Shown piece by piece: positions 10,945 to 16,675 of a DNA stretch of 64,000 nucleotides; position 1 is the stretch's first letter, and each line of letters starts with the position of its first letter. Below the pieces are notes generated by a model. That model was not told where the DNA came from and did no database searches. It saw only the letters and a program-made list of their open reading frames with translations. The DNA is from an uncultured Oligoflexia bacterium. Its GTDB lineage: Bacteria > Bdellovibrionota > Bacteriovoracia > Bacteriovoracales > Bacteriovoracaceae. The stretch is from the NCBI GenBank assembly GCA_913058265.1, contig CAJXPQ010000008.1, positions 62,001 through 126,000 on the forward strand, given 5' to 3'. The translations under genes were made by a program, and so were the position numbers.

Positions 10945-11157
10945 ATGGAAGAAGTAAGTTTAGGTGAAAATGAATTTATAGCGCTTTGTGATCTTTTAAA
11001 GAGAATAGGTATGTGCGAGAACGGTGGCCATGCCAAGGCGATGATTGCCGAAGGTAAAGTCAAAGTTGATGGGAAAGTAGAACTTAGAAAGAGATGTAAG
11101 ATTGTCGCAAATCAAATTGTGGAATATGAAGGACAGACTTGTCGAGTGATCGATTAG
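10945..11157 (+). CDS. S4-like RNA-binding protein, YbcJ type
   Basis: A 70-residue stand-alone S4 domain. The signature is FIALCDLLKRIGMCENGGHA followed by AMIAEGKVKVDGKVELRKRCKI, matching E. coli YbcJ-type proteins that bind structured RNA. The role is probably ribosome or RNA-related, but it is poorly defined in the family. It starts at ATG after AGGAATATGAG. It is followed at 16 bases by a small membrane-anchored ORF and then an exonuclease. Confidence 0.9.
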   Translation: MEEVSLGENEFIALCDLLKRIGMCENGGHAKAMIAEGKVKVDGKVELRKRCKIVANQIVEYEGQTCRVID

Positions 11158-12963: not shown

Positions 12964-12991
12964 TTGCAATATTGAGCCCCTGTGTTATGTT
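12964..12991 (+). promoter_or_regulatory. Possible sigma-70 promoter for the S6-S18 operon
   Basis: A TTGCAA box and a TATGTT box, each four of six consensus bases, are separated by 16 bases and lie about 80 bases upstream of the ribosomal protein start. The placement is reasonable but the boxes are weak. Confidence 0.35.
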
Positions 12992-13072
12992 GCTTCCACA
13001 TTTATATAGTGAAAATATTATACAACCTCGCTCCGTTAATTCGGGGCTTAATTATAACCCAGGAGATTATGT

Positions 13073-13669
13073 ATGATTTACGAATCAGCGTATGTTCTTC
13101 GCCCAGAAGCTGGTGAAGAAGCGGTAAAAGTAGTAACAGATTTTGTTGCTGCAACCATCAAAGAATTCAATGGTGAAATTCTTTTAAATGACAATTGGGG
13201 AGTAAAATCTTTTGCTCAACCAACTAGTAACGGCGTTACTAAGGGTCAGTACATCTACGTTATGTATAAAGCTGACACGACTGTAAACCTAGAGCTAGAA
13301 AGAAGATTTAAAATTTCTGAAGATGTTCTTAAATTCATCTTTATCAATTTAGGTGTTGAAGCGGATCAAGAAGAAATTGTTAAAACTTACAAAAACCCTG
13401 CACTTTTAACTGAAGAAGCTGGATTTGATTCTGATAAAGAGAGAAGAATGTTTTCTAAGAAAAAATCTTGTTGGTTCTCAGCTAAGAAAACAACTCCAAA
13501 CTGGAAAGACACAAGTTCTTACTCATGGTTAGTAAATGAATTTGGTAAAATTTCTCCAGCGCGAGTTACAGGATTAAGGCCTAAGCACCAAAGAGCAGCA
13601 ACTACAGCTATTAAACGTGCAAGATGTATGGGACTTATTAGTTATATGTCTAACAGAGTTGCAAGATAA
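13073..13669 (+). CDS. Fused ribosomal proteins bS6 and bS18
   Basis: A single 198-residue frame encodes two ribosomal proteins. Residues 1 to about 105 are bS6 (MIYESAYVLRPEAGEE, VKSFAQP, KGQYIYVMY, ELERRFKISEDVLKFIF). After a short linker (DSDKERR), residues about 126-198 are a complete bS18, with TGLRPKHQRAATTAIKRARC, and W/L and GKISPARVTG at the usual positions. S6 and S18 are direct neighbours in the 30S platform and form a heterodimer, so a fusion is structurally sensible. An ATG (Met126) sits at the junction without a clear ribosome binding site. The start follows AGGAG. Confidence 0.92.
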   Translation: MIYESAYVLRPEAGEEAVKVVTDFVAATIKEFNGEILLNDNWGVKSFAQPTSNGVTKGQYIYVMYKADTTVNLELERRFKISEDVLKFIFINLGVEADQEEIVKTYKNPALLTEEAGFDSDKERRMFSKKKSCWFSAKKTTPNWKDTSSYSWLVNEFGKISPARVTGLRPKHQRAATTAIKRARCMGLISYMSNRVAR

Positions 13670-13688: not shown

Positions 13689-14675
13689 ATGAATCAAACT
13701 GAATTAAGTAAAAACATTCAAGAGATTAATATCCAAAAGATGATCGTTATGGGGCTTGCTCCTGTATTATTATTTTTTAGTTTTTTTCTCTCTGTATTTA
13801 CACCTTACCCGATTGGTTTGAGCTCAGTACTTTATGGCAGAAAAGTTAGCGGTATTGTTACCGGTATCACGGTTCTTGCTTTTGTTGTATTGATGCTTTT
13901 TACTTTTGATGGTATGGATATCAGCTTGAGTATTTTCTTTGCTTTGAGTTTGATTTTGGGCGTTGGAATTTCTGAAGTTGTAAAAAAAGATATTAACCCA
14001 GTTTTAGGAATCGTGGCCATTGGTGCCATTGTTAGTTTTATTGCTGGCTTATTTGTCTTTCTTTCACTGGCTTCACAACAGCTAAGTCTAAAAGAAACTA
14101 TAGTCCAAGAGATTGAACGATTAAAACCTCAATTAGAAGAACAACAGAAAGCACTAGCAGCTTCAGGAGAAAAAGGAACATTTGAGATGATGGCCATATT
14201 AGGTCAACCAGATGTTTTAGCAGCAGAGGTTATTAAGTTAGCTCCAAGCTATTTTCTTGTGACTTTGTTTATCACTTTATGGGTGAACTTCTTTATGGTT
14301 TTAAAAAGTAATCGTTTGGTTCGAGGAGAAGCAAAGTATACGGAACAATCTATGCTTAATTACCAGTTGCCGGATCAAGTTATCTGGGCCGTCATTGCTT
14401 TCTTAGGTTTTTACTTACTAGAAGAGCAACCAGGTTTTGAGTATATGGGAGCTATAGGCCTTGCAGGTTTATCTGTTCTCGGTGTTTTTTATTTTTTTCA
14501 AGGTTTTGGAATTTATTTAGCATTCTTAGATAATTATAAAATAACGGGCTTTTTTAGAACGTTACTCGTCGTCACAACGGTGATGATGGCCAATAAAATG
14601 ATTGCATTAATTGGTCTGATAAATATGTTTGTCGACTTTAAAAAACTAATGAAAAAAAACGATTCAGGAGAATAA
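13689..14675 (+). CDS. DUF2232 membrane protein (YybS-like)
   Basis: A 328-residue polytopic membrane protein with about eight hydrophobic helices and a charged loop at residues 130-160 (QEIERLKPQLEEQQKALAA). DUF2232/YybS proteins commonly lie between rpsR and rplI, as here, with 19 bases to the S6-S18 gene and 2 bases to rplI. The molecular function is unknown. Tight packing implies cotranscription with the ribosomal proteins. Confidence 0.85.
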   Translation: MNQTELSKNIQEINIQKMIVMGLAPVLLFFSFFLSVFTPYPIGLSSVLYGRKVSGIVTGITVLAFVVLMLFTFDGMDISLSIFFALSLILGVGISEVVKKDINPVLGIVAIGAIVSFIAGLFVFLSLASQQLSLKETIVQEIERLKPQLEEQQKALAASGEKGTFEMMAILGQPDVLAAEVIKLAPSYFLVTLFITLWVNFFMVLKSNRLVRGEAKYTEQSMLNYQLPDQVIWAVIAFLGFYLLEEQPGFEYMGAIGLAGLSVLGVFYFFQGFGIYLAFLDNYKITGFFRTLLVVTTVMMANKMIALIGLINMFVDFKKLMKKNDSGE

Positions 14676-15334: not shown

Positions 15335-16675
15335 ATGGATGCACCTGTAAAAGAATTACCCCATGATCTATTAGCGGAAAAAGCCTTAATTGGATGTCTG
15401 TTAATTGATAATAGGTCGTTTGATCAAATTACCGATCTTTCTATCGTGCTAGAGGATTTCTATCATCCTCGCTACGGTATAATTTTTAACGGAATAAATG
15501 ATCTTGCTATTGATAGTAAGCCATTCGATATGGTTAGTATTTGTGCCAAGCTTACAGATATGGGGAAACTCGAGGCTGTTGGCGGGCAAACAGCAATTTT
15601 AGAATTAATTGAAGATACTGCCAGTTCTGCCAATGTTTATCATTACGGAAAAATTGTAAAGAATAAGTCAGTACTTAGGGGAATCGTTAGAACCTCAATG
15701 AAGATTACCGATCAAGGAATGAACTTCATTGGAAATGTTGAAGAGTTTATTGATGACGTTGAATCTAGCTTTTTTACACTTGCAAATCAAACCCGAACAA
15801 ACTTTATTATTACCCTTAAAGAATCTTTAAAAGAAAACTTAAAAAGACTTGAACAAGGTAAACGTGATCCAGGCGAAATTATTGGATTAAGTACGGGGTT
15901 TGATTCTGTTGATAAACGTCTCTTAGGTATGCAGGCTGGACAAATGATTATTATTGCTGCTAGACCTGGTATGGGAAAGACGGCTTTAGCACTTAATATT
16001 GCTGTGAACTCAGCTAGGCAATCTAATTTGCCAGTAATGGTTTACTCTTATGAGATGCTAGCTCCTGAACTATCGGGAAGACTTTTATCTAGTGAAGCTA
16101 ATATCGATTCGAGAAAGATAAGAACAAATGATTATAATGATTCAGATTTACGTAATTTAGGTCTTGCGGTTCAAGAGCTATCTAAAATCCCAATCTTTAT
16201 AAACGATAGTGGGGCGACGACTCTTCTTGATATTAAATCTCAAGCAAGGAAAGTTAAAACTGAGCAAGGTATTGGTCTTATTATTATTGATTACCTTCAA
16301 CTGATGCAATCCCACGTAACAAAATCTTCAAGAGAGCAAGAAATCGCAGAGATCTCGAGGGGAATTAAGGAGCTTGCAAAGGAGCTTAAGTGCCCTATTA
16401 TTGCTCTTTCTCAACTTAACCGTTCTGCTGTATCCAGAACTGATAGACGACCTCAGTTACAAGACTTAAGAGAATCAGGATCGATTGAGCAAGATGCCGA
16501 TGTTGTTTTACTTATTCATCGTGAAGACTATTATGATGAAAATACACCAGAGAAAGGTATTGCGGAAATCATTGTTGCAAAAAACAGGGCCGGTGAACCC
16601 GGAACTGTAAAACTTGCATGGATTGGTGCTCAGACTAAATTTGCTGATTTACAGTTTGATCCAGGTGCAAATTAA
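15335..16675 (+). CDS. dnaB: Replicative DNA helicase DnaB
   Basis: A 446-residue hexameric 5'-3' helicase of the replication fork. The N-terminal domain starts PHDLLAEKALIGCLLID, and the RecA-like domain holds Walker A (ARPGMGKTALA, near residue 210), the Walker B region LIIIDYLQLM, and the arginine-finger region RESGSIEQDADVV. Length and order are standard. It starts at ATG after GGAGAGAGA, separated from rplI by the terminator. PabB follows immediately. Confidence 0.97.
   Translation: MDAPVKELPHDLLAEKALIGCLLIDNRSFDQITDLSIVLEDFYHPRYGIIFNGINDLAIDSKPFDMVSICAKLTDMGKLEAVGGQTAILELIEDTASSANVYHYGKIVKNKSVLRGIVRTSMKITDQGMNFIGNVEEFIDDVESSFFTLANQTRTNFIITLKESLKENLKRLEQGKRDPGEIIGLSTGFDSVDKRLLGMQAGQMIIIAARPGMGKTALALNIAVNSARQSNLPVMVYSYEMLAPELSGRLLSSEANIDSRKIRTNDYNDSDLRNLGLAVQELSKIPIFINDSGATTLLDIKSQARKVKTEQGIGLIIIDYLQLMQSHVTKSSREQEIAEISRGIKELAKELKCPIIALSQLNRSAVSRTDRRPQLQDLRESGSIEQDADVVLLIHREDYYDENTPEKGIAEIIVAKNRAGEPGTVKLAWIGAQTKFADLQFDPGAN

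Follow-up and report, generated by a model that had tools for sequence, protein, structure and literature searches.

A conserved fusion of ribosomal proteins bS6 and bS18 behind a probable S6:S18-type autoregulatory leader

Introduction

Bacterial ribosomal proteins are nearly always made as separate small chains. The locus described here, which lies in a window of 64,000 nucleotides (the whole stretch of DNA that was analysed), raises the question of whether two of them, the direct partners bS6 and bS18, are encoded as one polypeptide, how such a fusion came about, and what it would mean for the ribosome and for control of the gene. Where the fused proteins are direct partners and the fusion is conserved, nature itself offers a test of effects on assembly, stoichiometry and feedback. 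Taking the evidence jointly, we regard it as very likely that the locus specifies a single bS6+bS18 polypeptide that serves as a covalent unit of the 30S subunit, that has a probable single origin, and that has kept a leader with probable feedback on its own synthesis.

The fused gene and its predicted product

On the forward strand, positions 13073-13669 form an open reading frame of 198 amino acids that begins with ATG and contains no internal stop. Its first part is bS6 (13073-13399, +; residues 1-109), in which PF01250 (Ribosomal_S6) matches residues 3-91 (E 3.5e-19; 69.2 bits against a Pfam cut-off of 27), and its last part is bS18 (13469-13666, +; residues 133-198), in which PF01084 (Ribosomal_S18) matches residues 138-189 above its curated cut-off (E 4.9e-17) and zinc residues 2 and 3 are replaced. 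Between them lies a charged, in-frame linker of 23 residues (13400-13468, +; residues 110-132). With the NCBIfam models, the S18 score (TIGR00165, 60.2 bits) lies above the cut-off of 38.75 and the S6 score (TIGR00166, 41.5 bits) slightly below the cut-off of 42.9. The domain matches and the unbroken frame bear out the claim of an earlier note on this DNA that a complete bS6 and a complete bS18 are joined by a charged linker, and the calculated mass of 22.6 kDa agrees with the product of about 22 kDa that the note had named. Across the 3.23 Mb genome (99.6% complete), profile searches matched S6 and S18 at the window locus only, and no stand-alone copy of either was found. The S6-S18 fusion in the window is real, and the frame is neither a chance occurrence nor a read error, because the same in-frame fusion is present in 112 genomes of the family, as discussed further below.

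Three further genes follow on the forward strand: first one for a DUF2232 membrane protein (13689-14675; PF09991, E 9.4e-19), then rplI for ribosomal protein L9 (14678-15274; PF03948, PF01281, TIGR00158) and dnaB for the replicative helicase (15335-16675; PF03796, E 1.8e-96; PF00772). Elsewhere in the window, positions 10945-11157 encode a small S4-domain (S4_2) RNA-binding protein of 70 amino acids.

An AlphaFold2 model built from 85 fused rows reached a mean pLDDT of 85.8 and a pTM of 0.81, with residues 113-118 as the sole stretch below pLDDT 50, and it places S18 beside S6; with just 17 rows, the S18 half was modelled poorly. The fold of the S6 half agrees with those of solved bS6 chains, matching many ribosomal S6 chains with a TM-score of up to 0.94 over the target (8buu_f), and none of the 60 matches listed was a solved chain spanning both halves.

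Distribution of the fusion in the family and phylum

With the window protein as query, we surveyed 129 genomes of the same family, a group of predatory-type bacteria that is probably GTDB Bacteriovoracaceae, since a scan of named genomes returned only five close loci, all of them from Halobacteriovoraceae or Oligoflexia metagenome genomes. A match was obtained in 119 of the 129, including 73 of 73 genomes of good quality, and the ten genomes without a match are all incomplete. The earlier note had proposed a search for the same fusion in related genomes, and it was found in frame in 112 of the 119 matching genomes, distributed over approximately 41 genera and including assemblies of one to two contigs. 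Both halves were matched within one open frame in 110 genomes, and two others (G110 and G120) are also fused and interrupted by contig ends. Separate S6 and S18 genes are carried by five family genomes (G058, G059, G060, G064 and G020) belonging to four early-branching genera, and in G014 the match is broken within S6. In G071 (locus L068), a gene otherwise of the fused type has a TAA in the linker between S6 and S18, and its S18 part holds no ATG, GTG or TTG, which could reflect an error, stop-codon read-through or an unusual start. One fused genome also has a second, distant S6-like match (G074:C102:367-744; 33% identity), possibly a contamination.

In the other families of the phylum, where examined, the S6 and S18 genes are separate. 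S18 is located apart from S6 in the genomes examined from families f2-f10, and in most loci read from families f14-f29 the two genes are adjacent yet separate. Some individual arrangements deserve mention. At loci L103 and L120 (families f2 and f3), the sole S18, without zinc cysteines, is distant from S6 and has L28 and a KOW/L24-like gene as neighbours on the opposite strand. In G174 and G177 (family f3), S6 was found and no Pfam match to S18, G174 being a one-contig genome, and G326 has two S18 genes in a single genome.

The zinc site and the origin of the fusion

Where zinc-binding S18 has C-C-C-H, the S18 of the window reads C-S-R-H and hence falls outside the zinc-binding (C+) class. The second and third cysteines are missing in every fused S18 of our residue table, and C-C-C-H is kept in the S18 of all five split genomes and in 20 outgroup rows. 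Some unfused outgroup S18s have also lost zinc residues, so that the link between this loss and the fusion is a correlation. Residues K60 and R63 (E. coli numbers), with which E. coli S18 contacts RNA and the rpsF leader (Babina 2015, PMC4647458), are kept as K and R in 98 of 98 readable fused rows, and the interface residue K24 is kept in 99 of 99.

In a tree of S6+S18, for which 28 fused rows were sampled, the five split genomes with C-C-C-H stand outside a group made up of the fused sequences and G071. The rpoB+rpoC tree has G064 branching off first; near its base, without firm support, lie G071 and G058-G060, the latter placed weakly within the fused genera (support 73/45). A single clade of fused genomes was not rejected on rpoBC, with G071 included (p-AU 0.40) or left out (p-AU 0.115). 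One fusion event in the family is the simplest and most likely reading of these sequences, the rpoBC tree alone being no proof of it. The fusion would have arisen once, after the lineages with separate genes had branched off, when an rpsF-rpsR pair would have lost the stop codon of rpsF and become a joined frame. The gene order of the split lineages is that of the fused locus, and their S18 bears a long charged N-terminal extension that ends in D-K-D-R-R-M-F or similar and resembles the fused linker; they differ from the fusion in having a stop and a new start between the genes, and in retaining the zinc residues.

If the fusion were instead already present in the family ancestor, G058-G060, G064 and G020 would be secondary fissions, as the weak placement of G058-G060 inside the fused genera suggests. 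However, the C-C-C-H that these lineages share with many outgroup S18s is lost in every fused S18, and the S6+S18 tree sets the split lineages outside with the single clade still tenable on rpoBC, so that we consider fission unlikely, though it deserves some weight.

The linker and the proposed internal start

Linkers measure 23 amino acids in the window and about 23-42 elsewhere (their limits are approximate), with K, D, S, E and R abundant among their residues. Among 67 close pairs, linker substitutions at the three codon positions amounted to 0.078/0.060/0.320, compared with 0.112/0.062/0.318 for the S6 part and 0.043/0.019/0.275 for the S18 part in the same pairs. Because this pattern is like that of the S6 and S18 coding DNA, it is very probable that the linker is translated and that its reading frame is maintained.

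A charged, length-variable linker with a low-confidence stretch at residues 113-118 is also what a cleavage site could look like, and the fused chain could be a polyprotein cut in the linker, leaving the ribosome with ordinary separate S6 and S18. Against this, visual inspection of the linkers of about 40 genera revealed no conserved cleavage motif, and little would be gained from a fusion that is always undone; we give processing of this kind little credence and favour a protein that would remain uncleaved.

Internal initiation at Met126 (ATG at 13448-13450, +), by which the earlier note had supposed that separate S18 might still be made, would supply extra free S18 beside the fusion. An in-frame ATG does occur close to the S18 start in the window and in related genera, and a weak purine-rich stretch precedes it. 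However, no Shine-Dalgarno-like motif of at least four bases was found ahead of the Met126 ATG, the residue aligns with an inner position of S18, approximately residue 4 of the E. coli protein, and the codon is not conserved: the linkers of 43 of 99 fused genes contain no ATG, GTG or TTG, and a linker start codon with a Shine-Dalgarno-like motif occurs in 8 of 99. We judge such initiation very improbable. The earlier note is thus upheld as to a true fusion, by conservation in the family, a coding linker and the lack of lone copies, and not as to separate S18 from Met126. That a lost stop or frameshift in sequencing or assembly had joined two normal genes, a concern insofar as for most relatives the assembly is a draft of many contigs, was rejected with virtual certainty, the family comparison already refuting it with linkers of varied length that are always in frame and that show a coding substitution pattern.

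The 5' leader and promoter

A covariance model built from 45 fused leaders, among them that of the window (L033), has one match in the 64 kb, at 13019-13075 (+; 43.2 bits), which we read as an rpsF-type leader RNA. Its layout is CTC-GCTC-hairpin-GGGC, a spacer, and then CC-A-GGAG. Helix H1 (13027-13029/13063-13065, +) comprises three pairs and contains the end of the Shine-Dalgarno sequence; H2 (13030-13035/13042-13047, +) is a hairpin with base-pair covariation; conserved cytosines lie at 13058-13060 (+), with CC near invariant in the family; and the Shine-Dalgarno sequence AGGAG, within CCAGGAG, occupies 13061-13065 (+), its last three bases forming the 3' strand of H1. Across the 45 fused leaders, 96.7% of cells are paired vs 77.7% in shuffles, and covariation is 0.571 vs 0.190 in shuffles and at most 0.184 when the structure is slid. 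In H2, five of seven pairs have changed on both sides. The H1 columns (9-11 with 59-61) are 98.5% paired, with few changes and hence weak evidence of pairing.

The same model also matches leaders that precede unfused rpsF genes, four of them in other families of the phylum (L026, E 1.2e-7; L209, 4.3e-6; L009, 3.1e-5; L014) and one in a split genome (L066, 4.4e-5). It gave no match on the leaders of G058-G060 or on the E. coli leader (L214), and Rfam searches across the region returned a chance match only, none of it relevant. In E. coli, H1 of the rpsF leader includes the Shine-Dalgarno sequence, H2 is conserved, K60 and R63 of S18 contact a conserved pair of cytosines, and repression requires S6 and S18 jointly (Babina 2015, PMC4647458). 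By its match to this published layout, the leader of the fused gene is probably an S6:S18-type autoregulatory leader, whose effector would for the same reason now be one polypeptide.

Upstream, inspection by eye suggests a probable operon -10 element, TATGTT (12986-12991, +), and a possible -35 element, TTGCAA (12964-12969, +); a consensus promoter scanner did not list the TATGTT element. In 78 of 97 fused loci, vs 13.6 in shuffles, there is an element of the type TGxTAxxT, a pattern picked after inspecting the loci, and it stands mostly about 80-90 nt upstream of the ATG.

Implications for assembly and feedback

In the scheme that we propose, the gene would give rise to one 22.6 kDa polypeptide carrying bS6 and bS18 together, whose halves would each fold normally and, docked together, make up a pre-formed S6:S18 unit with a covalent link. 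Because the two are fused and no other copies exist, it is this unit that would join the platform of the 30S subunit. S6 and S18 pair prior to rRNA binding (Babina 2015, PMC4647458), so that the fusion would mainly turn that step intramolecular; a changed order of assembly, which the earlier note had raised, is speculation. Given a true fusion, the S6:S18 ratio would be fixed at 1:1 provided that the protein stays uncleaved. Because an S6:S18-type leader is kept, surplus fused protein would probably bind it, cover its own Shine-Dalgarno sequence and halt its own synthesis as one molecule; from the leader we infer this role of a one-chain repressor.

We hold it somewhat probable, on balance, that nearly throughout the family the heterodimer is one protein with no separate copies and with the zinc site lost, and that an ancient leader there senses a covalent, one-chain effector. 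If so, neither platform assembly nor feedback would any longer need two proteins to meet. The fusion also abolishes the free C-terminus of S6 and the free N-terminus of S18, the ends that E. coli modifies through RimK and RimI. A search for RimI, undertaken in view of the lost S18 N-terminus, left unfused families of the phylum below the cut-off as well, the acetyltransferase family being too broad for a loss of RimI to be read from it. Additionally, the fusion is usable as a marker character for the group.

No description of an S6-S18 fusion was found in the open-access literature, which omits most subscription papers; the genome comparison covered the window's own phylum, and annotation pipelines may already give such proteins a name.

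Comparison with known systems

The locus resembles the E. coli rpsF-(priB)-rpsR-rplI operon in its two protein families, their order, the downstream rplI and the kind of leader, and differs from it in encoding one polypeptide rather than two, in having no priB between, and in placing a DUF2232 gene ahead of rplI. Zinc-free (C-) S18 proteins are a known class, and the fused S18 is like them in its replaced second and third zinc cysteines; it is, however, the only copy and is fused to S6, rather than a second version accompanying a zinc-binding S18. Finally, the leader is like the rpsF leader described for E. coli (Babina 2015, PMC4647458) in its position, its H2 stem, its cytosine pair and the inclusion of the Shine-Dalgarno sequence in H1, whereas its H1 has three pairs, its sequence is so divergent that our model does not match the E. 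coli leader, and its effector would be one chain.
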